This document shows, in pieces, positions 19,125-43,278 of a stretch of DNA of 64,000 nt. Within the stretch, counting starts at the first letter, position 1. Each line of letters begins with the position of its first letter. The notes beneath the pieces were generated by a model. The model was not told the origin of the DNA, did not search any database, and saw only the letters and a list, made by a program, of their open reading frames with translations. The stretch lies in the IMG/VR virus record IMGVR_UViG_3300044293_000613, positions 1-64,000 of that record. One strand, 5' to 3'. Source of the DNA: a virus. Position numbers and translations under genes: made by a program.

Positions 19125-21044
19125 ATGCGCAAAAAAGTAGTTTTTCAATCTGATTTTGCTTTGGCAAAAACAGGTTTTGGAAGAAACTCTAAAGCAATAT
19201 TAAAGTATTTATACAAAACTGGTAAATATGATCTTATTAATTATTGCTGCGGCATGCAAAAAGGTAATGATCAATTAGATAGAACTCCATGGAAAAGCTT
19301 AGGATCATTGCCTAATACTCAGCAAGAAATAGATAAATTAAACAAAGATCCGCACTTAGCTAGAATAGCAAGTTACGGAGCGTATCTTATTGATGAGATT
19401 ATTAAAGAAGAAAAACCAGATGTTTATATTGCTGTGCAGGATATATGGGGAGTAGATTTCGCAATAGATAAACCTTGGTTTAACAAAATCAATTCTGTCA
19501 TATGGACGACATTAGATTCTTTGCCCATCTTAGACTCAGCAGTAAAATATGCGCCAAAAATTAAAAATTATTGGATTTGGAGCGATTTTGCAACCCAAGC
19601 TTTACATAAGCTTGGACATAAACATGTAAAAACTGTGCATGGAGCATTAGATATAGAAAACTTTTACAGACTATCAAATGAAGATAGGTTAAAACTAAGA
19701 TCAAAATTTGGCATTGATAAAGATAAATTTATAGTAGGTTTTGTATTTAGAAATCAGTTAAGGAAAAGCGTTCCTAATTTATTAGAAGGATATGCTTTAT
19801 GGAAAAAGAATAACAACATTAAAAATTCTGGATTATTATTGCATACTCATTTTGGAGAAGGTTGGAACATTATCAAACTTGCAAAAGAGTATGGTATTGA
19901 TACTAAAGAGATATATACAACTTATATTTGTAAAAGTTGCGGCTCTTACGAAGTTAAAAGTTTTGAAGGACAAGATTTAAATTGCAAATTCTGCGACACA
20001 GAAAAATCGCAGGTAACTACAAATGTAGGTTTAGGTATATCAGAGAAAGAATTAAATGAAGTATACAATCTTATGGATGTATACTGTCATCCATTTACAA
20101 GTGGTGGTCAAGAAATACCAATTCAAGAAGCGAAATTGACAGAACTAATTACCCTTGTAACAAATTATTCCTGTGGCGAAGAGATGTGCAAAAATGAAGC
20201 AGCAAGCTTGTCTCTTAATTGGTTTAAATATAGAGAGCACGGGACAGAATTTATTAAAGCTTCAACTGATCCAAAATCAATAGCAGAAAATATACAGAAA
20301 GTATATTTCATGGATCTGGAAAGTAGATTAAAGCTTGGTAAACAAGCAAGACAATGGACAATAGAGAACTATTCTGTTGAAATTATAGGAAAAATTATTG
20401 AAGAATTTATCGACTCTTGTCCGTTTATTGATAAACAAATGTCTTTCAAGATAGAAGAAAAAAATCCTTATCACACCGTTCCCGAAATTAAAGATGATTC
20501 TGAATGGGTAAAATATCTTTATCACAATATCTTAAATACAAAAAATGTAGATGAAAAAGATGAAGGACATAAATACTGGATGCAAGAGATAAAGAAGGGA
20601 ATGAAACGAATAGATATTGAGAATTATTTTCGTCAAATAGCTCTTCAAGATAACAATAAAAATAAGACGGTATCTTTTGACGATGTCTTAGATAAAGATG
20701 ACGCTGGTAAAAGATTACTTTTTGTCATGCCAGAAAGCATTGGGGATGTATTCTTGTCAACAAGTTTATTCAAATCAATTAAAGAACAATATCCAGAATA
20801 TAATTTATATGTTGCTACAAAACCAGAATATTTTGAAGTATTAGAAGGAAACCCATATATACATAAAACCATACAATACATTTCTCAAATGGATAGTCTA
20901 GTTTGGTTAGAAGGAATTGGCTCACATAAAGGATATTTTGAAATTGCTCTTTTACCTTATTCTCAGACTCAAAGATTCTTGACATATCTTCATAATGGTA
21001 AAACAAATATAGCTTATAAGGATTATAAATATGCATCTAGTTGA
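19125..21044 (+). CDS. GT4-like glycosyltransferase with zinc ribbon and GT9 N-terminal half
   Basis: In this 639-residue protein, residues 1 to about 440 form a GT4-type GT-B glycosyltransferase (FALAKTGFGRNSKAIL at the start, IVGFVFRNQLRKSVPNLLEGY, then HPFTSGGQEIPIQEAKL in the donor site). A zinc ribbon is inserted in it: Cys269-x2-Cys272 and Cys287-x2-Cys290. After a linker, RLLFVMPESIGDVFLSTSLF (residue 530 on) starts a GT9 domain, which is cut off by the stop at 21044 and continues in the next gene in another frame. It probably acts with that gene product as a bifunctional sugar transferase. It follows the previous gene by five bases. Confidence 0.75.
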   Translation: MRKKVVFQSDFALAKTGFGRNSKAILKYLYKTGKYDLINYCCGMQKGNDQLDRTPWKSLGSLPNTQQEIDKLNKDPHLARIASYGAYLIDEIIKEEKPDVYIAVQDIWGVDFAIDKPWFNKINSVIWTTLDSLPILDSAVKYAPKIKNYWIWSDFATQALHKLGHKHVKTVHGALDIENFYRLSNEDRLKLRSKFGIDKDKFIVGFVFRNQLRKSVPNLLEGYALWKKNNNIKNSGLLLHTHFGEGWNIIKLAKEYGIDTKEIYTTYICKSCGSYEVKSFEGQDLNCKFCDTEKSQVTTNVGLGISEKELNEVYNLMDVYCHPFTSGGQEIPIQEAKLTELITLVTNYSCGEEMCKNEAASLSLNWFKYREHGTEFIKASTDPKSIAENIQKVYFMDLESRLKLGKQARQWTIENYSVEIIGKIIEEFIDSCPFIDKQMSFKIEEKNPYHTVPEIKDDSEWVKYLYHNILNTKNVDEKDEGHKYWMQEIKKGMKRIDIENYFRQIALQDNNKNKTVSFDDVLDKDDAGKRLLFVMPESIGDVFLSTSLFKSIKEQYPEYNLYVATKPEYFEVLEGNPYIHKTIQYISQMDSLVWLEGIGSHKGYFEIALLPYSQTQRFLTYLHNGKTNIAYKDYKYASS

Positions 21045-22226: not shown

Positions 22227-23018
22227 ATGGAAGAATCAATATCTATTAATAGTACAGAGTTAGCTAAAGCGACAATCCAGAATGTTGATGATCTTACTGT
22301 TGTTCAACCTAGAGTTAGTCCACCAAAGTTCTTTGTAAGAAATTGTTATGGTCTTATTGAAAATGATAATATCAACTATGTATTCAATGATGATGGATCT
22401 ATCAATTGGAGAGGAATGGTTAAGCAGCAATATCTTGTACCAAATCGTCAAAGAACACAAGAAACAGATGTTTCAAAATTGGAGGATAAAGATCTTCTTA
22501 TCCTTTTGGGTGGGATTAAAGAGCTAGCTCAAATCAGAGGTTTTACAAGTGTTGAATATAAAGTCGTTACAGCAACAGACAATTATTTTGCAACATCTTG
22601 TAAGATTACATGGGCTCCTAACTATGAGACAGAGAATCGTCCAGTAGTGTTCGAAGCCCTTGCGGATGCTTCTCTTGTGAACACAAAAGACTTTGCTCGT
22701 TACTTCTTGGCGGCAATCGCAGAGAATAGGGCATTTGTTAGATGTGTCCGTAATTTTTTAAAGATTAATATTGTTTCCCAAGAAGAGCTTGGAGATGTAA
22801 AACTTGGGCTTGTAGCAAAAGAAAACTTTGAAAAAGAAAACCCAATGAATCCAACACTTCTTCTAGAGAAGATTATGCAGGATAAAGGGATCACTTTTGA
22901 TGTTCTAAAAAAGAGATTAGTAAAAGAAAAATTTGACAGTGCAGATAATTTTAATTCAATTAAAGATGTACCAAAAAGTAAAGTTTTTGAATTAATTGAA
23001 AGAATTAAAAAGGTTTAA
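22227..23018 (+). CDS. putative DNA repair/annealing protein of unknown family
   Basis: The 263-residue protein has a compact central domain (SKLEDKDLLILLGGIKELAQIRG, then EYKVVTATDNYFATSCKITW) with a conserved-looking helix AIAENRAFVRCVRNFLKI, and a separate C-terminal helical domain (TLLLEKIMQDKGITFDVLKKRL, then VPKSKVFELIERIKKV). The ENRAFVR helix after a small beta-sheet recalls Rad52-like annealing proteins, but I cannot assign it with confidence. The coding sequence is noticeably less AT-rich than its neighbours and it has its own strong promoter, so it is probably abundant early in infection. Its stop overlaps the stop of the convergent tail gene. Confidence 0.5.
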   Translation: MEESISINSTELAKATIQNVDDLTVVQPRVSPPKFFVRNCYGLIENDNINYVFNDDGSINWRGMVKQQYLVPNRQRTQETDVSKLEDKDLLILLGGIKELAQIRGFTSVEYKVVTATDNYFATSCKITWAPNYETENRPVVFEALADASLVNTKDFARYFLAAIAENRAFVRCVRNFLKINIVSQEELGDVKLGLVAKENFEKENPMNPTLLLEKIMQDKGITFDVLKKRLVKEKFDSADNFNSIKDVPKSKVFELIERIKKV

Positions 23019-26000
23019 CTAACAATTTTTAGCGTACCACTTTGGACGTAAATTGCTCCTCTTGGTAAACCTACCGAAGATGTAGGAATATTATTAACAT
23101 CAAAATGGATTGGAGAAACTCCAGGATTTACCCCAGTTATATAAATACCACTAGCAAAATGCATAGTTAATGTATTTGTACCAAGATTTCTTTTTGTAGA
23201 AGTTGTGCTATCTCCAAGAACTAAACACCCACTCTGATTAATATTAATATTTCTACCAACTCCATAACTGTAAGAACCATTGATAATATTATCACTTCCA
23301 CCAACTATTGCAGAATATGATCCAGATATGACATTAGATTTTCCTCCTAATATTGCTGAACTTAAACTTTCATTAGGAGTAGATCTATCAGTATTTTGAA
23401 TATAATTTCTTTCTCCACCTACGATAACTGCATTTTGAACACTACCAGTAATTATATTTAAATTACCAGCGAGAACACCGCAGAAAGCAGTCTTTGGGGC
23501 TTCAATTTCGCTAACGAAATCAGAGATAATATTTGAACGACCACCAGGAATAACATTATAATCTCCAAAAATTATATTTTTAACGCCTCCTCCAATAACA
23601 GAAACAAGTCCTTTAATATAATTACCTGTTCCTCCACCAATTGTAGAACTTCCTACGTCATCAAATCCAAATCCTGCAAGTCTTCCGTATGAACTTTCGC
23701 CTAAAAAGTTTCTTGTTAATACTAAATCTCTTGTTAAGTCTGTTATAATATAATCATAATTTAAATCTAATAATTCTTGACCAGATATATTATCAGAAAT
23801 TTTTATATTAAATCTGGAACGATTAGCAGAAGTAAAGATATTATAATATAAATTATTATTCGAAGTTGCACGACCAAATACTTTGACTTCTGCAGATGCA
23901 GAATTTTCAGTACCAATTACAATTTCATTCGATAATGTATAATTCTCATAGCCTAATATCTTGCTAACAGCAGAATATTCTTGATATCCTGTGCCCTCTA
24001 CAGCAAGATAATTAACTCTTACTCGTTCTCCACTATTTAAATTTTTTGATAATTTTATAGAGAATCCTGTTTTTGTTATATCTTGAATATTAACAATATA
24101 ATAATTTGTTTCATTTATATTTTGTAAATTAAATAATACCTCTGGTTTTTTATTCAATGTTAAATTAAATGGAATGTCAAATGTATTTTCTACTCCTGAT
24201 ATAATTGTTGAAGAAGCATAATGATATCCAGAGTCAAATGGGTATCGACCAGATCTATAAATACCTATATTAAATCCAATATTTTCAAGGAGATTTGCGC
24301 CAAAATTAATATCAAAAGTGTTTGTACCATGATTTGACGTAGAATAAGGATAGAAATTTTCTCCTGTTATCATCTCATCAATAATTGGAATATATTCAAC
24401 GCTACTATATCCAGAAAGTAGATCTATAGTATAACTTGAATTTCCAAGAGATAATCCAGTACTATATACTTGTAGATTATCATTAATAATCGTACCAGTA
24501 TAACTTACAGCATCCAAAAAGATATATTCATTCGAAGAATCAATATCATTATTTAATTTTATTTTTAAAATATTTTTTCCTGTTTCACGTATCTTGGCTA
24601 TATAAAGATCATTTGAATCTGGTTTGAAAACATTTTGGAAAACATGTGAAGCTCTTGCTATAGGAATATCAAAATGAACTCCAGTACCGAATATCATATT
24701 ATTAAAAGGTTTAATACTACCGATTTCTAAAATTTTGCCGCTATTTTCGTTAACACCTGTAAAGTAGCCTTTGTTTCCTGCGAAGAAATGAACTATAACA
24801 TTTTCATCTAGATTCTTAGAAAATACTATATTAAATCCAGATCTATCAATACCTGTAATGTAATTTTTATAAAAATCTTGAGATTGTATGGTATTTAATA
24901 CAATTAGATCGTCTGTATCAACAAAAGGTGTATTAAAATTAATTTTCACATCTTTATTTCCAGCATTAATTCCAGTTTTAAATACTTTAAATTGACAAAC
25001 CTTATCATCTTCTTGGAAAGACCCAGAATAAAGATTTTCAGATAAAATGCTTACCCAAGACAATAGATTAATTGTTAAATCTTCTGTATCAAGAATATTA
25101 GCAAATTCAACATCATAGCTTGTAGATGTAATATTACCATATTTAATATCATAGAAATCTTCTTCACCAGTTTTTTCTATGTTATGTAATACAGCTAATT
25201 GATTGGTATAAAGAAATAATGGATATTTAATATTTAGAATTTGTTGACCTGTTACTGGCACAGAAAAGATTTGATTTCCAATTCCAGCAAGACCAGTTGA
25301 TAAAGCATCTACAACATTTGCTCTACCTCCACCAATATTACAAAACGATCCGATAATTTTATTATTCTTTCCGCCAACAATATTAGAGTCTTCAGAATTA
25401 AATACGTCAAGACCAGTAATTAAATTGTCTTGTCCTGCTACGATTGAAGATCTTTTGGTTCCTGTAGCAAAATTACTTGTGCCGAATATAAATACGTTAT
25501 CAGAACCAGTTTCAATAACGTTATTTAGTCCGAGAGCTACAGAATGGTTAGATCTAACAACATTGTTCGCATTTGTAATATCTCTAGAAGTTGTAAGAAT
25601 ACCAGAAAGTGGTCCAACAATATCTAAACCAAGACCATTAAATTTAATATAATTTTCTGAATTTCCAACTCTAAATTTTGGTTTATAAGGATTATCAGTA
25701 TTGTCATAACCTAAAAAGAATCCACTTCCAAGATTTGAATCTATATCATTTACGCTTTTTATAATACCACTAGGAATTCCAAGTCTTCCTACATTAACTA
25801 ACGATGTGATATTAGACTGTTCTGCAAGTAAAATTTGAGTAGCTGTAGCGCTGAACTCATTTGAAAAAGCAATCCAATTTATATTTGAAGGACCAGGAAT
25901 TGAATTAATATTTGTAATTGCTGCATACCAGTAATTTGCTCCATTAGGATATTTTACAACATCTCTACGCACATTATCTGCTACATATCCAATAGATGGG

Positions 26001-28441
26001 TCCCACTCTCCACGATAAACAATTCCAGGTCCAGCTAATGATCTTCCAGAAGATCCAAAATTAGCTTGCAATATCATTCCCTCGTTAGGCTTCTCTCCAT
26101 CAAGAGCTCTTATTTTAATATAATAATTTCCACCGCTAGTTGGTACACCATAAATTTGATTAGATGAATTTAAGCTAGGACTTATTCCTGGAGGAAATAT
26201 TTCTTCTCCAACGCCAGATAAAGTTGTTGCAGAAATTTCAAAACTTGTTGCTCTTGAAGTTGTTTGAATTTGATAAAAAAATGCTTGGTCCAATGGATTT
26301 GTAACAATACTTGGACTTGTAAATATATCTGAATTTGGTGGACGATATCCACTAATATTTGCTATTTTAATTTTACGATCTCTAGTTATAATTAAATTTT
26401 CATAACCAATACCTGTATCGTAATAAGTATTATATAAAAATAACTCTCCGCTCCCTGTAATATCTCCACCTAATTTTGCCTCGATTACTGTATATCCAGT
26501 TGTATTATCTCCACCAGTAATCTGTATTACGTTTTTGCTTACTATTTCTAATGGGTAATAATTTATGTCTTTAAAGCCAAAAATATTTTTTGTGCCACTA
26601 TAACCACTAAAATAAATCTGATTAACACTAGAAGCATTGATTCCAGAAATGGTAATATATCCTAAACTATTGTATAACGTATTAGAAGGGGTAACATCAA
26701 AGATTGTAGGAAAAATATCTATTGATTTTTCTGAAGATAAAAGGTATTCATCATTAAATTTATTTCTTTTGATTTTAATTCTTGCTTGAGGATTTTTTAC
26801 TTCTTTTGGAATTCTGATTCTTATACCAGTTGCAGTATTAGATTCTTTTATTCCACTAACTAAATATGAACCTGTAACTGTTGCTAATCCAGTTATTGAA
26901 AGAAAATAAATATCTGAATTTGAAAGATTACCATAATCGCCAGAGGTTGCAGTTGGAGAATAAATTTCTATTTGATCTAAATATTTTGCTCCTTGTACAC
27001 CAGATAAATATCTTATATTAACATTAGCAGGATTAAGTTTAACCGATGCTATAAGTAAATTATTTGTATTTGATGAAGATATTAATGTACCAGAGTTTGG
27101 AAAATCCTGAGAAAAAAGTCTAAGTTCTGTGGTTTTATAATTATCTGGAAGTGAAAAACTAGCACGAGTACCCGTATTGACTACAGAAATTTTATTTCTT
27201 AATAGATTTTGTTGCCCTATATTAATGTAGTTTGTTCTTTGAAGATATTTTCCAGAAATTGAGATAGAAGCTCCTGTACCTAGCAATATATCATTAGGGC
27301 TAAATCCACTAACAATAACAGATGGATATAAAACATTTAATACTGAAACGCTTTCTGCAGAGCCATATTTTCCAGAAATAAAAATTTTATTAGTCTCTGC
27401 ATAATTAGGTAATAAGAAATTTATTCCTGTATTACCAACTTTATTAAATTGTATATCAAGATCATCTAAGTAAACTTTATCTATAAAACTTAAATTATCT
27501 CCAGAGATAGTAATGCTTGTTGAATCTACCGTTCCAGTTCTAGGAAAAAATTCGTCAAGATAAGGAATTCCAATTACTTTAAATCCTGTAAATGTATTCT
27601 GAACAATATCTTTATATTTTAAATTTTCTACTACACCAGAAATCTCCCCTCTTATATTTAAAGGAACTTGGAACTCTATAAATTCTATTTGTTCAGTTGT
27701 TAAATATTTTTCATACTCTAAACTAACCTTGGCATCTCTACCATTGGCTCCTACCAACTCAATAGGCATAGATAAATCTGGAATAGTAAATATACCTGAA
27801 TTTAATATATTAAAACTAGCTAAAGATCCACTGATTCCTGTTGTAGTTACTTCTAAACTAGCCGCTGTATTGGGTAAATAAGTTTTTAGCCCAGAAAAGT
27901 ATATTATTTCTCCAACATTATAACCAGTCCCAAAATCTGTTAATTCTACAGAGGATAATTTATATAATCCACTATCTTGATAAGTAGGTGATACTTCTAC
28001 ACCTTCATTATCAAATAATTTTAGATTAGGAGAAGGATAAAAATTTGTTCCGCTAACTCGAATATATTGAAAAGGAAAACCAGAAATAAAGTCAATTCCA
28101 GAAACTCTTGGTCTATCAACAATATGTAAATCAACAAAATTAGAAGATTTACCATAACTATTAAATAAATATAAATTATATTTCGATGGACTAACACCAG
28201 TAGGGATAGTAAACTCTATAGCATCTTCATAAATTGTATTATTAATTCCAGAAATATTTTGTTTGTCTTGACCGTAAACATTAAAAAATAGGTCAGAATT
28301 GAAAATACTTTGACCAGAAATTTGTAGAATGTTCTTCTTAAACGCTTCTCCAGAAATAATAATTTTTTCACCAGTAATACCAAATAAATTATTTGATGAT
28401 ATTATTGGCTCGGCTTGTCTTAATTCAAAAAATGTACTCAT
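23015..28441 (-). CDS. large tail fibre/decoration protein with TIG, CBM-like and YadA-like repeats
   Basis: The 1808-residue protein starts directly with IPT/TIG-type immunoglobulin-like repeats (for example FGITGEKIIISGEAFKKN), which recur to about residue 700. Near residues 800-860 is a carbohydrate-binding-like stretch (YRGEWDPSIGYVADN, then NYWYAA). Two blocks, about 950-1050 and 1585-1740, are built of trimeric-autotransporter (Hep_Hag/YadA head) repeats such as SAIVGGSDNIINGSYSYGVG. Between them several lectin-like beta modules repeat. It is most likely a trimeric fibre or tail-surface adhesin that contacts the host. It is the last gene of a minus-strand operon, overlapping the previous gene by ATGA. 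Confidence 0.75.
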   Translation of the reverse strand: MSTFFELRQAEPIISSNNLFGITGEKIIISGEAFKKNILQISGQSIFNSDLFFNVYGQDKQNISGINNTIYEDAIEFTIPTGVSPSKYNLYLFNSYGKSSNFVDLHIVDRPRVSGIDFISGFPFQYIRVSGTNFYPSPNLKLFDNEGVEVSPTYQDSGLYKLSSVELTDFGTGYNVGEIIYFSGLKTYLPNTAASLEVTTTGISGSLASFNILNSGIFTIPDLSMPIELVGANGRDAKVSLEYEKYLTTEQIEFIEFQVPLNIRGEISGVVENLKYKDIVQNTFTGFKVIGIPYLDEFFPRTGTVDSTSITISGDNLSFIDKVYLDDLDIQFNKVGNTGINFLLPNYAETNKIFISGKYGSAESVSVLNVLYPSVIVSGFSPNDILLGTGASISISGKYLQRTNYINIGQQNLLRNKISVVNTGTRASFSLPDNYKTTELRLFSQDFPNSGTLISSSNTNNLLIASVKLNPANVNIRYLSGVQGAKYLDQIEIYSPTATSGDYGNLSNSDIYFLSITGLATVTGSYLVSGIKESNTATGIRIRIPKEVKNPQARIKIKRNKFNDEYLLSSEKSIDIFPTIFDVTPSNTLYNSLGYITISGINASSVNQIYFSGYSGTKNIFGFKDINYYPLEIVSKNVIQITGGDNTTGYTVIEAKLGGDITGSGELFLYNTYYDTGIGYENLIITRDRKIKIANISGYRPPNSDIFTSPSIVTNPLDQAFFYQIQTTSRATSFEISATTLSGVGEEIFPPGISPSLNSSNQIYGVPTSGGNYYIKIRALDGEKPNEGMILQANFGSSGRSLAGPGIVYRGEWDPSIGYVADNVRRDVVKYPNGANYWYAAITNINSIPGPSNINWIAFSNEFSATATQILLAEQSNITSLVNVGRLGIPSGIIKSVNDIDSNLGSGFFLGYDNTDNPYKPKFRVGNSENYIKFNGLGLDIVGPLSGILTTSRDITNANNVVRSNHSVALGLNNVIETGSDNVFIFGTSNFATGTKRSSIVAGQDNLITGLDVFNSEDSNIVGGKNNKIIGSFCNIGGGRANVVDALSTGLAGIGNQIFSVPVTGQQILNIKYPLFLYTNQLAVLHNIEKTGEEDFYDIKYGNITSTSYDVEFANILDTEDLTINLLSWVSILSENLYSGSFQEDDKVCQFKVFKTGINAGNKDVKINFNTPFVDTDDLIVLNTIQSQDFYKNYITGIDRSGFNIVFSKNLDENVIVHFFAGNKGYFTGVNENSGKILEIGSIKPFNNMIFGTGVHFDIPIARASHVFQNVFKPDSNDLYIAKIRETGKNILKIKLNNDIDSSNEYIFLDAVSYTGTIINDNLQVYSTGLSLGNSSYTIDLLSGYSSVEYIPIIDEMITGENFYPYSTSNHGTNTFDINFGANLLENIGFNIGIYRSGRYPFDSGYHYASSTIISGVENTFDIPFNLTLNKKPEVLFNLQNINETNYYIVNIQDITKTGFSIKLSKNLNSGERVRVNYLAVEGTGYQEYSAVSKILGYENYTLSNEIVIGTENSASAEVKVFGRATSNNNLYYNIFTSANRSRFNIKISDNISGQELLDLNYDYIITDLTRDLVLTRNFLGESSYGRLAGFGFDDVGSSTIGGGTGNYIKGLVSVIGGGVKNIIFGDYNVIPGGRSNIISDFVSEIEAPKTAFCGVLAGNLNIITGSVQNAVIVGGERNYIQNTDRSTPNESLSSAILGGKSNVISGSYSAIVGGSDNIINGSYSYGVGRNININQSGCLVLGDSTTSTKRNLGTNTLTMHFASGIYITGVNPGVSPIHFDVNNIPTSSVGLPRGAIYVQSGTLKIVS

Positions 28442-33329: not shown

Positions 33330-35702
33330 ATGTCATATACAGCGAATGTAATTTCTCCTCCACCAAGTGTAGAGCAACTTGCAGCAACAAGTATTCAGCC
33401 AAGCGAATATTTTTTACGAACTCTTGAAGCTCAAAAGTCAATTAATACTCATATTCATGAAATTGAACCTTCAACACCAATTTTTCTTTATGAGATAAAC
33501 TTAAATCAAATTCGACCAGAGTCTATAAATTATCCGACTACAGAAGGTCCAATTAAAAATGGTATTTTACGTATTCATAATGATTTTAATTTATTCAACA
33601 TAAATCGAGGAATTATTAAGTGGAAAGGAGAATATTATTTTCCATTTCCAATTTATGGAGAACAATTTGACATAACTTCTAATGGTACAATACCTACTCC
33701 AAAAGTAAAATTTTCTAGTCAATTTTTAGATGACGAATTTAATTCATTTTACAAATATATTCGCATGCAAATGAATGAATTAAAGGATATTGTTGGCTCA
33801 AAAGTTACTAGAATAAAAACTTTTGTTAGATATCTTAGCGCAGATAATTTTGAAGGAAACGTTAATCCATTTAATGAAAACGTTTTAGTTCCTTGGGCTT
33901 CTCGAGATGGAGATGTTTTGACTGTAAGATCTACAAAACGCGTTCCAACATTTTTTTCTAAATGGTTAGTTTACTATCCAATTCCAAATTATAATAATAA
34001 ATTAAAAATTTTTAGCTCTTTAAAAACATATGATAAAACTAGAACTTTAAATATTCAAAATCAAATTCAAAATCATACCGTAGAATCTACAGACTTTATA
34101 AGTTTATATATAAATCAGTTAATTAACACTACTCTAGAAGTTCCAGAAACGTTTTCTATAGATATTTTTTCTTTTTCTGGATCAAATAATTTTACGTCTA
34201 TCATACCTGATCAAGCCAAAGAATTTACACAAATAAATACATCAAATAAATTAAAATTATTTTGTCAAATATATAGCGATGTTTTTTCGCCAACGTCGTC
34301 ATTTATAACAACTCCAGCTTTTCCTGTATCATTTACTCAATCTCCAGATAGTTTAATTTCTTTCATATCTGCAAAATCAAATACAGAAGGATTTGCTCAA
34401 TCTTTTAATTACGATATAACAAATCAAACTCAAACAGGTTTTCAAGCTAATTTTTCTCAACCAATTAGTGGAAATTTAGATTTAAATTATTTAACAATTC
34501 CAACGGGTGCATACACAGGCATTAATCCTTATTCAAACGAATCAACAAATTTAATTGCTATAAAAATTGTTAATAATTTTGGATCAGCTTCATCTGGAGA
34601 ATATAATATTCAATTTCCTTTGGTATTTAATAATGTACCAAAAATACTATTTAATGCTCAATCTACTTCTGGATTTATATTTAATCAATATTTAAAAAAT
34701 ATATCTAATACAGGATGCACTTTTGTAGCAACAAATACAGGAATAAGCAATTTTAGCTTAGGTCTACAAAGTGGATTTTTACTAGCTACAGACTATTTCG
34801 TAGAAGACTCTACTCCAACAGGTGCGCCTCAAATATTCTCTGCGGCAGCAAATTTAGCTCTTAGTTCTTTAGATAACATTAACGATAATACACTCGGTTC
34901 TCAAGAGATAGAGCTCGCCCCAGATATTTATTATATAGATAGAAAAGTGCAAGAAGATTCTGTAAATGTAGTTTATGAACTTGCATCTTTACTTGATATA
35001 GAAGGAGTAAAATTACCTTCTAGGATTTTATTATCAAAAAATTGTCCATTTACATATAGAGGCGAAGGTTGTCTTTATGAAAGAGGTGATAGATTAACTT
35101 CTGTTCATTCTGGGGTGTATGGAAGCATAGAAGGAATAGCGAAATATGAGAGTGGAGAAGCAAATACAAATAATATCAATTTAAGCGATGAGCAAATATG
35201 TATCGGTTTAAAATCTGCCCCTCCAGTAGCAGATTCAAGTGATGCTACGTTTACAAATGAAATAAGTAGTAGTAATTGGATAGACAAAGGAGCTTGGGTA
35301 GATGGAACAAGTTATAATTCTGGAAACTTTATATACATTGAAAAAAATGAAATAAAATATTATTTTGTTTGTCAAAAAAATCATATTGGGGATTCCATTA
35401 GCTCTCCACCTAATCTTAATTATTGGAAATCAGATACATGCTCGAAAACTTTAAAAGGTTGTAAATTGCGTTGGAAAAATAATCCAAATTTCCCAACAAT
35501 TAGAATAAGTGGATCATATATCTACTCAGGCTATTCAGAAGTTCATCAAAGAAATATGAGTATTTCTGATGTTCTTTTTGCTGACACGATTGCTGCCCCA
35601 AAAGATTATTATGATAATCAATTAATAGGCATATTACCATTTGGAGGATTTCCATCTGTAGAAGGTAAATATAGATCTCAACAAGGACCCGAAGGCGGCT
35701 AA
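33330..35702 (+). CDS. minor tail protein, lambda gpL-like, enlarged
   Basis: The N-terminus (PIFLYEINL, then KFSSQFLDDEF and GSKVTRIKTFVRYL) and C-terminus (NCPFTYRGEGCLYE, TCSKTLKGC, LPFGGFPSV) match lambda gpL, whose C-terminal cysteines hold an iron-sulfur cluster. The four cysteines here are 572, 581, 704 and 711. At 790 residues the protein is over three times the lambda length. The extra central part contains lectin-like beta modules, and a CBM-like insert (YNSGNFIYIEKNEIKYYFVC) lies between the two Cys pairs. It forms part of the conical tail tip and probably binds surface glycans. Confidence 0.85.
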   Translation: MSYTANVISPPPSVEQLAATSIQPSEYFLRTLEAQKSINTHIHEIEPSTPIFLYEINLNQIRPESINYPTTEGPIKNGILRIHNDFNLFNINRGIIKWKGEYYFPFPIYGEQFDITSNGTIPTPKVKFSSQFLDDEFNSFYKYIRMQMNELKDIVGSKVTRIKTFVRYLSADNFEGNVNPFNENVLVPWASRDGDVLTVRSTKRVPTFFSKWLVYYPIPNYNNKLKIFSSLKTYDKTRTLNIQNQIQNHTVESTDFISLYINQLINTTLEVPETFSIDIFSFSGSNNFTSIIPDQAKEFTQINTSNKLKLFCQIYSDVFSPTSSFITTPAFPVSFTQSPDSLISFISAKSNTEGFAQSFNYDITNQTQTGFQANFSQPISGNLDLNYLTIPTGAYTGINPYSNESTNLIAIKIVNNFGSASSGEYNIQFPLVFNNVPKILFNAQSTSGFIFNQYLKNISNTGCTFVATNTGISNFSLGLQSGFLLATDYFVEDSTPTGAPQIFSAAANLALSSLDNINDNTLGSQEIELAPDIYYIDRKVQEDSVNVVYELASLLDIEGVKLPSRILLSKNCPFTYRGEGCLYERGDRLTSVHSGVYGSIEGIAKYESGEANTNNINLSDEQICIGLKSAPPVADSSDATFTNEISSSNWIDKGAWVDGTSYNSGNFIYIEKNEIKYYFVCQKNHIGDSISSPPNLNYWKSDTCSKTLKGCKLRWKNNPNFPTIRISGSYIYSGYSEVHQRNMSISDVLFADTIAAPKDYYDNQLIGILPFGGFPSVEGKYRSQQGPEGG

Positions 35703-35703
35703 A

Positions 35704-36444
35704 ATGAATATTGAATTTAATCTTCAATTAAAAGAAAAAATCAAAAGAGAAGCTTTAAAAAATTCGCCCTATGAATCTTGTGGTTTTATTTATTTAGATA
35801 AACAGACTTTAAAATTTGAAGTTTTTCCATGTAAAAATGTAGCTTCCAATAAAATGAATATGTTTTCTATCTCACCTCAACAATATATTGCATGTAGTTC
35901 TTTAGGGGAAATTACCTCCTGTTATCATTCTCATACGAATGACAATTTAGACTTTAGTGAAATAGATAAGGAAAATAGTAATAAATATAATATGCATTAC
36001 ATATTATATAATACAAAAAAAGATATATTCAATTTTTACAGTCCAAATTCAGAAAAAAATCCATATATTGGAAGGCCATTTATCCTAGGAATTTCAGATT
36101 GTTTTACATTAATGAAAGACTACGCGCAAAAAGAAAGAAATGTACTTTTAAATTTTCCAAAATATACAGCTTATCCAAAAGATATAAAAGAAATTGGAGC
36201 CTTATATGAAAAACATTTTTTAGAAAATGGATTTGTTAAACTAGATAAAAATGTTAAATTAGAGAAAGACGATGGTATTATGATGATATTTCCTGCGGTA
36301 TGCGAAGACTATCCAACTCATGCAGCAGCTTATATAGGAGACAATATAATCTTACATCAGCCTTTAAATTCTTTTTCTTGTGTAAATATATATGATAATT
36401 TCTATAAAAAACATACTAGTTATGTATTAAGGTATAGAGGTTAA
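35704..36444 (+). CDS. tail-tip protein, lambda gpK-like (JAMM plus NlpC/P60)
   Basis: The 246-residue protein has two peptidase-fold domains in the gpK order. Residues 1-110 are a JAB/MPN metalloprotease domain with CGFIYLDKQ and the metal motif CYHSHTNDNLDFSEID (His75, His77, Asp). Residues 125-246 are an NlpC/P60 peptidoglycan hydrolase with the nucleophile Cys133 in GISDCFTLMKDY and the His of THAAAYIGDNIILHQPL. gpK helps assemble the tail tip and may cut cell-wall peptides on infection. One base separates it from the gpL-like gene and nine from gpI. Confidence 0.92.
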   Translation: MNIEFNLQLKEKIKREALKNSPYESCGFIYLDKQTLKFEVFPCKNVASNKMNMFSISPQQYIACSSLGEITSCYHSHTNDNLDFSEIDKENSNKYNMHYILYNTKKDIFNFYSPNSEKNPYIGRPFILGISDCFTLMKDYAQKERNVLLNFPKYTAYPKDIKEIGALYEKHFLENGFVKLDKNVKLEKDDGIMMIFPAVCEDYPTHAAAYIGDNIILHQPLNSFSCVNIYDNFYKKHTSYVLRYRG

Positions 36445-36452
36445 AAAGGCAT

Positions 36453-37757
36453 ATGGTAAACATTAAATTACATGGTATTCTAGGAGAAGAAATAGGTCAA
36501 GACTGGAATCTTGATGTTAATAGCGTTGCAGAAGCGTTTAGAGCTATAGAAGCAAACACTCAAAAATTAACTAAAACATTAATTAAACACGCAGAAAATA
36601 ATTTAAAGTACGAAATTCTAATTAATAATAGACCTATTTGGGTTGCAAAGGCGCAAGATTTACCAGAGGCAAATAAAGATGTAAAAAAAGAACATTTTGA
36701 AATGCTTGGTAATTCAGAATTTTGTATGAATTTCGGTCATAATCTAAAAAGTATAGATGTAGTACCTGTTTTGGAAGGCGCAGGTGGTGGTGGTGGTGGT
36801 GGGGGAAATAGTTGTTTTCCAGCTGGCACAAAAATTCTAACTCCTAATGGAGAAAAAAATATAGAAAATCTTAGCATCGGAGATGAAATTTTATCTTTTG
36901 ATAAAGATAAAAATGTACAAAAAGATACAATTGAAGAAGTATTTTATCATAAAAATAATAAAATTTTAAAAATAACTTTATGGGATGGACATGTTATTAG
37001 AGCAACTCCTAATCATTGGTTTCTAAACGAGTATAATAGATTTGCTCCAATTGAAAATTTTAAAGTTGGGGATGTTCTTATACATAAAAGTGGAGATGTA
37101 TTGCCAATAGAAAAAATTGAAGAAGATGGTTTTGAAGATGCGTATAATTTCCATGTTAAAAGTAATCATACTTATATTGCTAATAATATTTTAGTCCATA
37201 ATGGAGGAGGTGGTAAAGGTGGAGGAGGTGGTAAAGGTGGAATGAGTAGCGCAAAAGGAATTTTTGCAATCTTTTTAGCGATTCTTTTAATTCCATTTGG
37301 CGGACCATTATTTGGGTTGACTTTGATGCAACTAATGCCAGCAATTTTAGGATTATTAGCTCTAGGAGTATCTATGCTTTTAATGAAACCACCACCAATG
37401 GTTAGTCCGCAAACTATCGCAAATCCTTCTGCAGATTTTGAAGCTTCTCCAGAATCTGGTGGAGAACCTTCTTACACATTTAATGGTCCAGTAAATACTG
37501 TTGGTGAAGGTGGACCAATTCCTATAGGATATGGAAGATTAATAATAGGAAGTCATCAAGTATTTAGCTCTTATGATCAATTATACAGAATTCAGTCAAG
37601 AGAAAATAGATATGGATCTGATGGCAGACCACCAACAGATGCCGGAGCAGATAATTACCCAACAAAAAGCTTTTACTTTAATCATTATGGAAGTGCAATA
37701 GATATTCAAGATTTCCAAGGAAATTCTTTATCTCAATCTTCATTACAAGGCGCATAA
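36453..37757 (+). CDS. tail assembly protein, lambda gpI-like, interrupted by a Hint (BIL) domain
   Basis: The 434-residue protein begins with a gpI-like ubiquitin-fold region (KLHGILGEEIGQDWNLDVNSVAEAFRAI) and ends with the gpI tail: a Gly/Lys-rich linker, two membrane-like helices (AKGIFAIFLAILLIPFGGPL, then MPAILGLLALGVSMLL) and FNGPVNTVGEGGPIPIGYGR. Residues 121-250 are an intein-type Hint domain inserted in the glycine linker. Excision would give 304 residues, or cleavage would separate the two parts. gpI works with gpJ and gpK at tail-tip assembly. RBS AAAAAGG is close to the ATG. Confidence 0.88.
   Translation: MVNIKLHGILGEEIGQDWNLDVNSVAEAFRAIEANTQKLTKTLIKHAENNLKYEILINNRPIWVAKAQDLPEANKDVKKEHFEMLGNSEFCMNFGHNLKSIDVVPVLEGAGGGGGGGGNSCFPAGTKILTPNGEKNIENLSIGDEILSFDKDKNVQKDTIEEVFYHKNNKILKITLWDGHVIRATPNHWFLNEYNRFAPIENFKVGDVLIHKSGDVLPIEKIEEDGFEDAYNFHVKSNHTYIANNILVHNGGGGKGGGGGKGGMSSAKGIFAIFLAILLIPFGGPLFGLTLMQLMPAILGLLALGVSMLLMKPPPMVSPQTIANPSADFEASPESGGEPSYTFNGPVNTVGEGGPIPIGYGRLIIGSHQVFSSYDQLYRIQSRENRYGSDGRPPTDAGADNYPTKSFYFNHYGSAIDIQDFQGNSLSQSSLQGA
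36783..36800 (+). repeat. GGT trinucleotide run encoding polyglycine
   Basis: Six consecutive GGT codons, followed by GGG and GGA, encode the run of glycines immediately before the Hint domain. A similar glycine-rich linker resumes after the domain, so the element sits inside what was one flexible linker. Confidence 0.8.
36813..37202 (+). other. Hint/bacterial intein-like domain in gpI-like protein
   Basis: Codons 121-250 (130 residues) form a mini-intein: block A CFPAGTKILTPNGEKNIENL with the N-terminal Cys, GDEILSFDKD, block B GHVIRATPNHWF, and a C-terminal block YNFHVKSNHTYIANNILVHN. There is no homing endonuclease insert. The residue after the final His-Asn is Gly and not Cys, Ser or Thr, which is the feature of bacterial-intein-like domains that cleave and only sometimes splice. 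It is flanked by polyglycine on both sides. Confidence 0.85.
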
Positions 37758-37758
37758 T

Positions 37759-40700
37759 ATGGCAAAAAAATGTAAAGATTGCGATCCAAATAAATATATT
37801 GAAGGAGTTGCTTATAGAGGAAGAAATGGGCATTCTTTTGACGGAGTATATTCCTATAATGATGTTGGTCAGCCATATGATAGTAATGAAAATCCAACTA
37901 CAGATATGCTTGCTAATGTATCAGATATGTTAGATGCATACAATCCAATTTTTACTTCAAAATTTGCAACAGGCTTATCTGATTCTTTAAATAATCCACT
38001 ATATGTTAAGGGTATAGATAAAGATCGAGGATTTTGGTTTATATGGAGTTTTATAGATGGAATCGTTGCTTATAATTCTCCAAGAAGTTCTGTTACTGCT
38101 CCAGCAATCATAAGTTCAGGAACAACAACAGCGAAACTCAACCAAAATTTTAATTTTTCAATTCAAACAGATAAAATTCCTTCGATATTAACTTATACAA
38201 ATTTTGGACAATTTGCAGATCAAGATAGTTCTGATAAACTAAGATTTTCAAAAAGCTTAACTAATCAATCTTATACTCAAACAGGAGAAAATATTACAAT
38301 AACTTTATCAAATAATTCAATTTTTACTTTAGGAGAATTTGTTTTTTGTAAATTTATTTCTGGATCTCAAAATAAACATGATTCCTATCAAATTATAGGT
38401 GCTACTTCGACAACGATTACAATTCGAATCCCAGGATCCTTAACGACATCTGGATCAGTAGATTTATATTCTTTTAAATATTTTAATCCTAGCAGTACAA
38501 ATAATTCTCTTTTAAAGAATAAGATAAATTACGTAGGCTATTATACAGGTTTTATAAATGCTACATTAATAGGCACTACCGCGAATTATACTAGTAAAAA
38601 AAGTTTAACGATTAAATCTTTATCATCAGATGGAACGGAGCCTATTTATGTTACAAGTAACCCAACTATACATGCGTTCCGTGGAAATAGTTTCGTTTAT
38701 CAAATTACTACCAATTTAGATATATCTCAATATGATGTATTAATGAGTAGGGCTCAACTAGATATAATTAATAATTTAAACTTAACATGGAATAGTGAAA
38801 CCAAAGTTATTCAAGGGACTATAAATCCACAAATAGATGCTGAATTAAAAACTGAAGCTTGGACATTTGAAATTAGAGCAAAGAGAGGTGCAGATGTTGG
38901 AAATAGAACTACTTTTAATTTAAATATTCTAAAAGGAAATCTAAATGCCAGTATAAATTTTCCTGGAGTTCCAGGAGCGTTTACTCCTTATAGTTTGACT
39001 GGTACTGTAGGCAAATCTTTTAACTCTAAGCTGTCTATTCATAATTCAAACATTGTAGGAATATCAAATTTACCAGAAGGATTAAATTTTAATTCTTCAA
39101 ATAATTTAATTACAGGAACTCCAAAACATGCAGGTGTATTTACTTCTAAAATAAGCGCTTCAAATGCTAGAGGAACAAATCAAGGAACAATCATATTTAC
39201 TTTCAGTCCATTCGAAGAAAATAATCGACCATCTGGTACAACCTATCCATCAGAAATTCAACTTTTACAAAATAGTTATTCTGTTCTAAGAAATAATAAG
39301 ATAACATTAAGGCTACGTTCTAAAAGAACAAGAATGGTCTCTCCGCAGCCACCAAAGCCTTCAGAAGAAATATATTTCAAAAAAATAAACAAAAGTGAAT
39401 ATAATTATATAAAACAAAATAATTTTCCTGCGCCATTTTCAGCAAATTATATATATAACGCTAATTCTCCAACGGTTATTTTTTCTTTAAATAGTCCTCA
39501 TAATTTCGTTGTTGGAACTTACTTAGATGTTACATTCCAAGCAAATAGTTCTCTTAAAGCTGGAAGGTTTTTAATCACGAGTATTATAAATAATACTACA
39601 GTTGAAGTAAATTTAGGAGATAAAACATCTAATAAATCAACAGCGAGTGAAACAGCTACAGTATCGTCTTACGTTGTGGCTTTAAATGGAACAGATATAA
39701 GTAACATATCATTTGTTCCTAGAGACTCTCTAGAAGCAGAAACTAATTTTTGGATTTACATAATAGATACAAACACAACTGATGCATTTCCAATAGAAAT
39801 TGAAGGATCTTATGATATATCTTCAATCCTTCCTGCTCAAATTGATGGTATAGGAAATGCTTGTTTTGCGCCTCAAAATAGTGAAGCTAAAGGAGCAGTA
39901 TCAACTCCTTTCACACAAGAAATTGCAGTTACAGCTTCTTCGCTCGTAAAATCTGCCTGGAGTGCAAATCCTGCGGAAAATATACCAGTAATATCTTTTA
40001 ATCCTGGACCAAATCTAGAGCATCAAATTATATTTCTAAGTGGTCCCTTAGAAGTACAAACTGCTTTTGCAAATCAAACTCTACCTAAAAGTGGAGTTAA
40101 AAAATATCCTAATGGTGTTCCTACATCAAATGGTACGTATACTTTTTTTATTAGATTATTTGATACTTGTACATTTAATAGAGTAACAAGCGAATTCGTA
40201 TTATTTTTAGGAACATATACTCCTAGAGTAGGAGATGTATACGTTTGTACATATAGAGCAACGTGTTTTACTAAAAAAATGCGAGTCAATACTCCTAAAG
40301 GCAAAATTAATATAGATAAATTAAAAATTGGAAATGAAGTATATGCATTTGATGAAGATAAAAATATTCATATATCAAAAATAATTAAAATTATAGATCA
40401 TAATAAAATTTCTCAACCAGTATTTAAAGTAAAATTAGAAAATGGAACTGTTTTAGAAAGCACATTATCTCATCAATTTTTAGATGGAGATGGTAATTTT
40501 AAGTTTCTTGGCGAAATGAAAGCTGGAGAATATTTATTTTCATTTGGTAAAAAAGTAAAAATTTTAAGCATAGACCAAAGTCATATGGAAGAAGTTTACA
40601 ACTTTGAAATAGATAAATATCATACATATATAGTAGAAGATATATTTGTTCATAATGGGGGGCATGCGCCCCGAAAAAACTCGTACAACTATAACGCTAA

Positions 40701-43278
40701 TTATACTCTAACTAGTAATTCTATCCCAGGCAATTGCCATACTCTAGTATCAAGAATAGGAGATACTATAACTTATAATAACTACGCTTATCAATATAGA
40801 AATAATTTATCTGAATCTAAGGACATTGGAATTACTTCTTTAACAAACATATCTTTATTAGATATTTTAGGTGAAGGACCAATAGAAGGTATTGTAAACT
40901 ATGAAATCAAACCGAGACCCGGGTATCAGAAAGGAGATATAGGATATAAAAATGGGGTTGATTTAGTCAAATATCCAGGTCAAAATTCCTTTATAAGATC
41001 TATTTATTGGAATGAAACAGCTCTTGCAGATGATACTTTTCCAAATCCAGGTAGTGTTAATTTTGATTTTATTAAGCTAAAATTTGATAATGCCGATTGT
41101 GCTCCTCGTCATGCAGATATTACTCAGTTATCCAATATAAGACTAGAAGAAGAGTTTTATTCAAAAAAAGCAGGAAATGGTATTTATGTCAATCATCTAG
41201 AATTTAGAGATCAAAATAATAATCTTTTATCTAGCTTCGCTAAATTACCAAGAAGATTGACTAGCACAAAAACTGTAGGCACAAGATTATTTGGTAAACG
41301 CAAATTCCAAGATAACACAGAGAGAAGTTATAAAAAATCTATTAATATTTTAACAAAAGATCTTTATGGATTAAGACTTCATATTAAAGTAATTAGTCTT
41401 TTTAAACAAATTGTAGACTTAAGAATTTTTGAAAGCGCAAGTGAAGCGGAATCAAACAGTGAAGGAGGTAGAATTGATCGTCAAAGTGTAACTTTTAACA
41501 TTACATTAAAAAGAATTGATAAAGGTAGTGGATCGGAAGGTTTTATTATTACCCCAATAAATGTAGGAGCAAATAAAACATCTTTACCTCTAGTGATAAC
41601 TGGCAGATTAAATTCTGGTCCGTATATTGAAACATTTGAATGGACAGGTTTGACTACGGTTTCAAATCAAAGAACAGTTGGATGGGAAATAGAAATAGAA
41701 CCAACATATACAGAACCAATAGACAATAATGTAGTGTTAAAAACTGGTATAGATTCAATTACAGAAACTTATAACGAGCTTTTAATTTTACCTAATACAG
41801 CAGCAATTATGACAACATTTGATGCTAGATTTTTTTCAAGTATTCCGCAAAGATCTTACGATACTAGATTATTGAAAGTCAAAGTACCATTAAACTATAA
41901 TCCTTATTCTAAAACTTATGATGGTATCTGGAATGGAGCATTTAAACTTGCGTGGACAGATAATCCCGCCTGGTGTTTTTATGATCTTTTAACGAACAGA
42001 AGATATGGTTTAGGTAAGTATGTAGACCCAAGATATACAGATAAATGGACTTTGTATGAAATAGGAAAATATTGTGATCAATTGGTTAGCGATGGAAAAG
42101 GAGGTCTTGAGCCAAGATTTACATGCAATATGCTAATCTCAACAAGAGAAGATGCTTATAAAGTTGTAAATGATATGGCAAGTATATTTAGAGGTTTAGT
42201 ATATTACAGTGCAGGGTTAATTATGATTTCTCAAGATAGACCAAAAGATGCAATTTATATATTTAACAATAGCAATGTCAAAGATGGAGAATTTACATAT
42301 AGTAATACTAGCAGAAGAGTAAGAAGAAATATTGCGCTTGTAAGATATAATGATAAAGATAATTTTTTTAAACCAGCAGTTAAATATGTAGAAAATAGAG
42401 AAGGAATTATTAGATATGGTATAAGAGAAACTGAAGTGAGCGCATTTGGTTGCACAAGCGAAGGCCAAGCTGAACGACTAGGAAAATGGACTTTAATATC
42501 TGAGAATTCAGAATCCGAATTAGTGAGTTTTGAAACAAGTTTACCTGCAATGTATTTAAAGCCTGGAGATATAGTGTTAATTCAAGATCAAAACAGGCAA
42601 AATAAAATTTTGGGTGGTAGAACATACGAATTAAATAAAAATTATGCAATATTAGATGTAAAATATGAAAATATATCTGGATATCTTCCAGTAATTAGCG
42701 GTTGTAAATTTAATATATTAACTCCCGCAGGTAATATAGAAATAGGAACTCCTAGTGGTAATTATCTCACAGATTTACAAGAGCAACAACAGGCTAACGT
42801 ATTTAAAGAAAGAGTTTTAAATGATATAGAATTTATGACTACAGAAGGCATGCAATCTGGGATAAATACATCTGTAATTAGAAGAAAACAGATACAAACA
42901 ATTAATTATAATATTGAAAATGATGATACTTCTAGTAATTCTTTTGGCGCGTATGTAAGTTTAGAAACAGGAATTAATTACAATGGCTATACAAAACTAA
43001 GCTTTGGAAGCGCAAGATTAGATGACAAAGAACACACATTGTTGCAAAATACAGTTTGGACTATAGAGCTTGATCCAAAAAAATATGATCATACAAAAAG
43101 TCCAAGTATATCAGGCAAAAGCAGTGCATCACTTTATCCTGGAGCAAGTCTAGAACCATATATAGATAGAACTCAAAAATTTAGGGTACTTGATATCGAA
43201 GAGCAAGAAGAATATAGATATAAAATTACAGCACTTCAATATGAGGAATCTAAATATGATATGGGAGATGATATATAA
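37759..43278 (+). CDS. tail tip attachment protein, lambda gpJ-like, interrupted by a Hint (BIL) domain
   Basis: In this 1839-residue protein the C-terminal half is gpJ: SLLDILGEGPIEGIVNYE, GNGIYVNHLEF, NPAWCFYDLLTNRRYGLG, LISTREDAYKVVNDMAS and GLIMISQDRPKDA, which form the hub of the tail tip. The first 835 residues are an added region that starts with CxxC (KKCKDCDP) and includes at least one He_PIG-type Ig domain (LPEGLNFNSSNNLITGTP). Residues 836-966 are a Hint domain at the boundary between the two regions. gpJ determines receptor binding in lambda. Processing would join or separate the 835-residue head and the 873-residue hub. Confidence 0.88.
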   Translation: MAKKCKDCDPNKYIEGVAYRGRNGHSFDGVYSYNDVGQPYDSNENPTTDMLANVSDMLDAYNPIFTSKFATGLSDSLNNPLYVKGIDKDRGFWFIWSFIDGIVAYNSPRSSVTAPAIISSGTTTAKLNQNFNFSIQTDKIPSILTYTNFGQFADQDSSDKLRFSKSLTNQSYTQTGENITITLSNNSIFTLGEFVFCKFISGSQNKHDSYQIIGATSTTITIRIPGSLTTSGSVDLYSFKYFNPSSTNNSLLKNKINYVGYYTGFINATLIGTTANYTSKKSLTIKSLSSDGTEPIYVTSNPTIHAFRGNSFVYQITTNLDISQYDVLMSRAQLDIINNLNLTWNSETKVIQGTINPQIDAELKTEAWTFEIRAKRGADVGNRTTFNLNILKGNLNASINFPGVPGAFTPYSLTGTVGKSFNSKLSIHNSNIVGISNLPEGLNFNSSNNLITGTPKHAGVFTSKISASNARGTNQGTIIFTFSPFEENNRPSGTTYPSEIQLLQNSYSVLRNNKITLRLRSKRTRMVSPQPPKPSEEIYFKKINKSEYNYIKQNNFPAPFSANYIYNANSPTVIFSLNSPHNFVVGTYLDVTFQANSSLKAGRFLITSIINNTTVEVNLGDKTSNKSTASETATVSSYVVALNGTDISNISFVPRDSLEAETNFWIYIIDTNTTDAFPIEIEGSYDISSILPAQIDGIGNACFAPQNSEAKGAVSTPFTQEIAVTASSLVKSAWSANPAENIPVISFNPGPNLEHQIIFLSGPLEVQTAFANQTLPKSGVKKYPNGVPTSNGTYTFFIRLFDTCTFNRVTSEFVLFLGTYTPRVGDVYVCTYRATCFTKKMRVNTPKGKINIDKLKIGNEVYAFDEDKNIHISKIIKIIDHNKISQPVFKVKLENGTVLESTLSHQFLDGDGNFKFLGEMKAGEYLFSFGKKVKILSIDQSHMEEVYNFEIDKYHTYIVEDIFVHNGGHAPRKNSYNYNANYTLTSNSIPGNCHTLVSRIGDTITYNNYAYQYRNNLSESKDIGITSLTNISLLDILGEGPIEGIVNYEIKPRPGYQKGDIGYKNGVDLVKYPGQNSFIRSIYWNETALADDTFPNPGSVNFDFIKLKFDNADCAPRHADITQLSNIRLEEEFYSKKAGNGIYVNHLEFRDQNNNLLSSFAKLPRRLTSTKTVGTRLFGKRKFQDNTERSYKKSINILTKDLYGLRLHIKVISLFKQIVDLRIFESASEAESNSEGGRIDRQSVTFNITLKRIDKGSGSEGFIITPINVGANKTSLPLVITGRLNSGPYIETFEWTGLTTVSNQRTVGWEIEIEPTYTEPIDNNVVLKTGIDSITETYNELLILPNTAAIMTTFDARFFSSIPQRSYDTRLLKVKVPLNYNPYSKTYDGIWNGAFKLAWTDNPAWCFYDLLTNRRYGLGKYVDPRYTDKWTLYEIGKYCDQLVSDGKGGLEPRFTCNMLISTREDAYKVVNDMASIFRGLVYYSAGLIMISQDRPKDAIYIFNNSNVKDGEFTYSNTSRRVRRNIALVRYNDKDNFFKPAVKYVENREGIIRYGIRETEVSAFGCTSEGQAERLGKWTLISENSESELVSFETSLPAMYLKPGDIVLIQDQNRQNKILGGRTYELNKNYAILDVKYENISGYLPVISGCKFNILTPAGNIEIGTPSGNYLTDLQEQQQANVFKERVLNDIEFMTTEGMQSGINTSVIRRKQIQTINYNIENDDTSSNSFGAYVSLETGINYNGYTKLSFGSARLDDKEHTLLQNTVWTIELDPKKYDHTKSPSISGKSSASLYPGASLEPYIDRTQKFRVLDIEEQEEYRYKITALQYEESKYDMGDDI
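40264..40656 (+). other. Hint/bacterial intein-like domain in gpJ-like protein
   Basis: Codons 836-966 (131 residues) mirror the gpI domain: Cys836 in TCFTKKMRVNTPKGKINIDK, GNEVYAFDEDKN, the block B region GTVLESTLSHQFL, and the C-terminal block YNFEIDKYHTYIVEDIFVHN followed by Gly-Gly. Size, layout and the VHN-G ending are the same as in the neighbouring gene, although the sequences have diverged considerably. No endonuclease domain is present. Confidence 0.85.

Follow-up and report, generated by a model that had tools for sequence, protein, structure and literature searches.

Paired bacterial-intein-like Hint domains in the adjacent tail-tip genes gpI and gpJ of an uncultured phage

What do two bacterial-intein-like (BIL) Hint domains do inside neighbouring proteins of a phage tail tip? 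The question is raised by the window analysed here, a stretch of 64,000 nucleotides that corresponds to positions 1-64,000 of the 69,579-base IMG/VR virus record IMGVR_UViG_3300044293_000613, and in which profile matches delineate a lambda-type tail-tip cluster in the order gpL-K-I-J. One Hint domain lies in the polyglycine linker of the gpI-like protein, between an N-terminal ubiquitin-like (Ubl) domain and a C-terminal domain whose plug role we infer from lambda gpI, and the other lies in the gpJ-like protein, where an N region of 835 residues meets the central tail hub (Table 1). By sequence and predicted fold, both are complete A-type BIL domains, and the reading we favour, with a probability of roughly 55%, is that they are working domains that process their own precursors during tail-tip assembly.

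Both domains start with a Cys and end with Val-His-Asn (VHN), followed by Gly-Gly, and they are the only matches to the Pfam profile PT-HINT in the whole record (E 7.6e-11 for the gpI Hint and 2.1e-6 for the gpJ Hint, both exceeding the curated cut-off). A preliminary description of this DNA, made from the letters alone, had reported two such Hints of 130 and 131 residues at these coordinates, with the same ends and in the same linker and junction, and had classed them as BIL-type domains lacking a nucleophile at +1, the first position after the Hint. All of these observations are confirmed, and its interpretation is partly supported. In a sequence search of the PDB, the gpI Hint is matched best by the C. 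thermocellum BIL domain 2lwy (E 8.9e-14), and the AlphaFold model of gpI again ranks 2lwy first, ahead of BIL2 from Tetrahymena BUBL1 and the gp41-1 intein. The model of the gpJ Hint reaches a predicted local distance difference test score (pLDDT) of at least 84 across the domain; inteins and BIL2 lead its Foldseek matches, with 2lwy 12th by E-value, and in VIA-align it superimposes on 2lwy with a Z of 20.4 and 1.4 Å over 131 residues, a result with which several inteins tie. Because 2lwy and inteins match the gpJ Hint alike, it is the +1 residue, and not the fold, that separates a BIL from a mini-intein.

That residue is Gly in both window Hints, whereas a canonical intein has Cys, Ser or Thr there. 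A homing endonuclease is likewise absent, the Hints being too short and without an extra domain, as it also is from mini-inteins. With A-type BILs they share the size (about 130-150 residues, as an endonuclease-free Hint fold), Cys1, the TxxH motif, the terminal His-Asn (Cys and His-Asn being present in 25 aligned Hints) and the lack of Cys, Ser or Thr at +1. They differ in their hosts, which in the available text of the review of these domains are non-conserved bacterial proteins, in whose hypervariable regions the domains lie, whereas gpI and the gpJ hub are conserved core proteins of the tail tip; we nevertheless file the domains as BIL-like, since host type describes the known hosts and not the domain. 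In polymorphic toxins a C-terminal toxin follows PT-HINT, and here plug and hub domains follow instead. Tetrahymena BUBL proteins resemble gpI in having a glycine-ended Ubl directly before a BIL of the same fold but, as far as the available text describes them, carry the BIL between Ubl domains and in tandem arrays, whereas gpI has a single Ubl, on the N-side only, and a plug domain as its C-flank. Phage inteins, too, are Hints inside phage proteins (TerL, portal, helicase, polymerase), but the accessible descriptions place them in terminase, portal and nucleic-acid enzymes and not in tail-tip linkers without a +1 nucleophile.

Conservation was assessed from a gpI search that returned 25 IMG/VR relatives, one of which (L003) has a gpI identical to that of the window. 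Every one of the 23 relatives whose gpI is complete has the gpI Hint; several of these contigs are near-identical, and the Hint comprises 17 distinct sequences. In their alignment Cys121, Thr185, His188, His239, His249 and Asn250 are invariant, followed by an invariant Gly251 and Gly252, and the glycine linker after the Hint has two further invariant residues, Lys255 and Lys261. All 17 have Gly at +1, a position held by G, R or M in the gpJ Hints of the window's clade. The preliminary description had counted a loss of catalytic residues on alignment as evidence against its interpretation, and what the 25 aligned gpI and gpJ Hints display is complete invariance of C1, T65, H68, H129 and N130. 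In gpI, the median ratio of nonsynonymous to synonymous substitution rates (dN/dS), taken over 140 of 169 pairs, is lower in the Hint (0.149) than in the plug (0.164) and the Ubl (0.177); in gpJ, over 53 of 62 pairs, the Hint (0.371) lies between the hub (0.207) and the N region (0.427). These medians omit pairs of low divergence or saturated dS, and come from non-independent pairs with high dS. By this measure both Hints are under constraint, with purifying selection on the gpI Hint as strong as on the rest of its gene. The domains had also been proposed to act as a diversification device, an idea that finds no support in a gpI Hint that is conserved and not variable; a timing role for self-processing is possible.

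In Hint chemistry, as set out in the available text of the review and of an account of BIL2 (PMC8616854), Cys1 forms a thioester with the residue before it, and the Asn at the end of the domain undergoes cyclisation. Applied to the tail tip, Cys1 would attack the preceding peptide bond to give the thioester, cyclisation of the terminal Asn would break the bond after the Hint and, with no Cys, Ser or Thr at +1, the thioester would mostly be hydrolysed, resulting in cleavage. For gpI, this would release the Ubl with its glycine tail, as an N-terminal piece ending ...EGAGGGGGGGGNS, from the hydrophobic part and the membrane-active plug domain. For gpJ, the N region would be parted from the hub, and either be held non-covalently in the tail tip or shed. 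We infer from these features that the domains are active, that they cleave more than they ligate and that they have a role in maturation.

The gpJ junction is spanned by 22 contigs of the clade, of which 15 carry the Hint, six encode N region and hub as one Hint-less gpJ with a linker of 15 to 54 aa, and one, L023, has a split gene. There the N gene closes with ...GDVYSCRYT; two in-frame stops, AAGG and seven bases follow, and then an ATG that opens MGYGNLRLPRYENF. The N gene ends, and the hub gene begins, no more than about two residues from the Hint borders seen in relatives. This two-chain state is the product expected from double cleavage, and self-cleavage is a plausible fit to the split gene. 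Scans with the L023 N region and the clade hub start found no further contig with the junction, and the split is known from this one contig. On a hub tree of 93 rows (10 of 103 were dropped as partial or near duplicates, and L009 and L022 are absent from the hub table as the contig end cuts their hub), the gpJ Hint changes state nine times, at least six of these changes being forced by the starred branches, and the gpI Hint once. Inspection by eye revealed a conserved Cys on each side of the gpJ Hint, six residues ahead of it (codon 40246-40248) and at +27 behind it (40735-40737), in the motifs GDVYxC and IPxNC, respectively, which are also found in the Hint-less and split relatives and are shifted in L009 and L010. 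We would guess at a disulphide staple between N region and hub through these residues.

In more distant relatives the very N terminus of gpJ holds a Hint, set in a glycine-rich motif directly before the hub. A scan with five such Hints matched at least 543 uncultured-phage stretches and 10 genome loci, and the figures that follow refer to the best 80 of the viral stretches, with 64 distinct Hints in all (61 viral and three from metagenome-assembled bacterial genomes). All but one (63/64) are complete and end in His-Asn, C1 and TxxH are present in 64 of 64 and Gly precedes the Hint at -1 in 63; among the 63 complete Hints, Ala occupies +1 in 58, Gly in four and Thr in one. The hub follows in frame in 59, and 59 of 64 have another G[AS]GG motif after the Hint, so that, with Ala at +1, a cut after the Asn would give a native-like gpJ N terminus. 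Empty sites occur as well, for example KILRGAG[Hint]KGGGGGSC in L142 vs KVLRGAGGGGSSC in L056 and KIIRGAGGSVAKSC in L053, and IIRGAGGGGG[Hint]TGSGEG in L099 vs IIRGAGGGGGKGGGG in L093. The usual insertion niche is a shared glycine motif, which reads LEGAGGGG where the gpI Ubl ends and IxGAGGGG where gpJ begins. A gpI gene is visible at 54 of the 64 loci and in each lacks a Hint, the double Hint being, on these sequences, special to the window's clade. Among the 10 cellular loci, three (L207-L209, all metagenome-assembled) have the N-terminal gpJ Hint architecture, and the other seven gave no Hint match above 40 bits in the scan. Some further arrangements were seen: tandem gpI-like genes, each with a Ubl and a gpI C-terminal match, stand upstream of the Hint-bearing gpJ in L150, L151 and L153; the N-terminal gpJ Hints of L161, L163, L164, L166 and L168 end in Leu-Ser-Asn and not Val-His-Asn; and two to three head-to-tail Hints occupy the C-terminal end of one viral protein in L167, L169, L171, L172, L189, L190 and L203.

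The position of the gpI Hint touches on an earlier prediction for lambda-type tails. The window gpI has the Ubl, glycine linker, C-terminal domain and position between K and J of lambda-type gpI (TAPI), and gpJ has the phrog_31 and Phage-tail_3 matches of a lambda-type hub, but here a Hint sits in the glycine linker and separates Ubl from plug in the very region that gpK is predicted to cut: according to the available text of PMC1779556 (2006), the JAB domain of gpK would release the gpI Ubl at its last glycine. In two papers on the lambda tail tip, in so far as their text is available, gpI is seen over residues 135-223 in one and from 101 onward in the other, and the N-terminal domain is unseen; in the first of them gpK was not detected in virions. 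We also considered whether the Hint replaces the gpK JAB peptidase, for which the evidence is mixed, and did not adopt the idea: the window's clade, L099, L150, L154 and L155 retain a JAMM pattern next to a Hint. At six loci with an N-terminal gpJ Hint (L051, L054, L055, L141, L142 and L143), gpI is the gene that immediately follows gpL, and gpK is missing from between them; the eight records of that group (the six plus L147 and L148), most of which are short fragments, gave NlpC in none and JAB in one, distant from the tail genes. A JAMM-like pattern lies upstream on the same strand at 58 of the 64 N-terminal gpJ loci, as detected with a loose regular expression in all frames that is not gpK-specific.

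Several observations weigh against self-cleavage as the function of the two Hints. A gpK with an intact JAMM motif stands beside the Hint in 17 of the 17 non-duplicate rows examined in the window's clade, so that the Hint is no simple replacement for gpK; one may act after the other, or each may have its own bond to cut. The gpI model is reliable over the Hint alone (mean pLDDT 53.2), and the geometry of the junctions falls outside its reliable part. The six fused relatives keep N region and hub as one chain, and separation of gpJ is thus not essential. Since such a chain also resembles a spliced product, splicing has to be weighed, in which the freed +1 amine would attack the thioester, join the glycine-rich flanks and restore continuous gpI and gpJ. 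We regard this as rather unlikely, although it is favoured by the flexible glycine that flanks the gpI Hint on either side, by the continuous gpI of Hint-less relatives (62 of the 77 rows with a scored gpI) as well as the continuous gpJ of the six clade members, and by the Hint of L099 at 5672-6061 (duplicate L217), whose Thr at +1 makes it splice-competent and the sole such case among the 63 complete Hints, which again speaks against cleavage. The title of a 2004 paper reportedly refers to splicing without a +1 nucleophile. Elsewhere, however, +1 is nearly always Ala, Gly, Arg, Met or Lys, ligation is unnecessary in L023 with its split gene, and most of the N-terminal gpJ cases would end with a doubled glycine motif; A-type BILs, in the available part of the review, cleave without ligating.

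Self-cleavage must also be set against transfer of the thioester to another protein. The preliminary description had proposed a trans exchange between gpI and gpJ, and a broader version would have the gpI thioester attacked by an amine on gpJ or by a linker lysine, with the Ubl becoming attached to another tail-tip protein. BIL2 of BUBL1, which ranks second among the fold matches to the gpI Hint, links a ubiquitin-like domain to lysine in an ATP-independent reaction (PMC8616854, available text), and the invariant Lys255 and Lys261 are suggestive as candidate acceptors. However, gpJ proteins that have no Hint can carry Gly-Lys linkers too, so an acceptor role for the two lysines does not follow, and we consider conjugation doubtful. 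An equally doubtful extension is that the gpI Hint would be a viral E1-free Ubl conjugation device, charging the Ubl of gpI itself as a thioester and handing it to a lysine of the linker after the Hint or of an adjacent tail-tip protein, with the gpK JAB as the matching isopeptidase and a self-contained cycle of attachment and removal controlling tail-tip assembly. As for the pair in related phages, seven of the 22 clade contigs that span the gpJ junction keep the gpI Hint without a gpJ Hint, and outside the clade, where gpI is visible, gpJ Hints stand beside a Hint-less gpI. Each Hint therefore occurs without the other, which makes an obligate exchange unlikely and means that a two-Hint exchange is not required. 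Another alternative is that these are near-neutral mini-inteins or BILs persisting in the glycine linker without a phage function, as could be suggested by the six to nine changes of gpJ Hint state, the known empty sites and the tolerance of glycine linkers to insertions; with the gpI Hint kept in 23 of 23 relatives under selection equal to its host gene, with no homing endonuclease, and with a domain that cuts its host protein unlikely to be neutral, we find it distinctly improbable. Least credible is retention for the fold with catalysis lost, given that the invariant residues are the catalytic ones, in the N-terminal gpJ family as well.

The gpI and gpJ Hints of the window share 35% identity and the gpI Hints form a separate clade (support 94/97), which rules out a recent duplication of one into the other, in agreement with the divergence noted in the preliminary description. 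In a tree of 103 Hints, from which L156, L158, L159 and Hints not ending in HN had been removed, a joint clade of gpI and window-clade gpJ Hints withstands the approximately unbiased (AU) test (p-AU 0.453), so an old duplication is possible.

Domain and host proteins are of known kinds, and it is their combination and spread that appear new. In a collection of cultured phages, gpJ hub matches were found in 1537 records and Hint-bearing queries matched 55, 11, 10 and 5 records; among the matches listed (40 of the 55 in the largest set), no Hint lay under an annotated gpI or gpJ, with some Hint matches falling in unannotated or hypothetical genes and the surroundings inspected for one record. 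In Ruminococcus phage NatCom_29429 (L297), a Hint lies in a hypothetical protein at 8001-8405, and each of two related records contains three places with a Hint. The open-licence literature, a scope outside which most subscription journals fall, yielded no paper on Hint domains in genes of the tail tip. The findings place self-processing Hints in the core of the phage tail tip, one of them exactly between the Ubl and plug of gpI, and suggest maturation by self-processing in tails with such domains. The gpI Hint bears on the processing predicted in 2006 (PMC1779556), which the two lambda tail papers, as available, leave open with the N-terminal gpI domain unseen. The large wider gpJ family offers Cys1 and Asn mutants as a genetic handle on whether and why tail-tip proteins need cutting, and the gpI arrangement is a possible viral relative of ATP-free ubiquitin-like attachment.

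Table 1. Tail-tip genes of the window and the parts of gpI and gpJ.
Feature	Position	Strand	Basis
gpL-like gene, enlarged	33330-35702	+	
gpK-like gene: JAB (JAMM) metallopeptidase and NlpC/P60	35704-36444	+	Pfam PF14464 E 1.5e-7, PF00877 E 7.7e-5
JAMM pattern HSHTNDNLDFSEID of gpK-like protein	within 35704-36444	+	motif intact
gpI-like tail-tip gene, 434 aa	36453-37757	+	phrog_32 tail assembly protein E 1.6e-26
gpI N-terminal Ubl (beta-grasp) domain, residues 1-108	36453-36776	+	phrog_32 over residues 1-114; beta-grasp per available text of PMC1779556
Polyglycine run GAGGGGGGGGNS before gpI Hint	36777-36812	+	sequence, alignment
gpI Hint (BIL), 130 aa, residues 121-250	36813-37202	+	Pfam, PDB sequence search, fold match
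Polyglycine run GGGGKGGGGGKGG after gpI Hint	37203-37241	+	alignment
gpI hydrophobic segment and putative C-terminal plug domain, residues 268-434	37254-37754	+	phrog_4554 over residues 299-370
gpJ-like central tail hub gene, 1839 aa	37759-43278	+	phrog_31 central tail fiber J E 5.3e-128; Pfam PF13550
gpJ N region, 835 aa	37759-40263	+	Ig-like stretch (He_PIG) at residues 411-481
gpJ Hint (BIL), 131 aa, residues 836-966	40264-40656	+	Pfam, fold match
gpJ hub region 3' of Hint	40657-43275	+	phrog_31 / Phage-tail_3, lambda gpJ-type

The polyglycine run 3' of the gpI Hint contains an 18-nt tandem repeat. Elsewhere in the window, an H-type lectin match above the cut-off lies in a 1808-aa protein (23015-28441, minus strand), and a weaker one, under the cut-off, in the enlarged gpL-like protein. 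The plus strand also carries DNA polymerase III alpha-like (15963-18500), DnaB-like helicase (10247-11737) and glycosyltransferase (19125-21044) genes.

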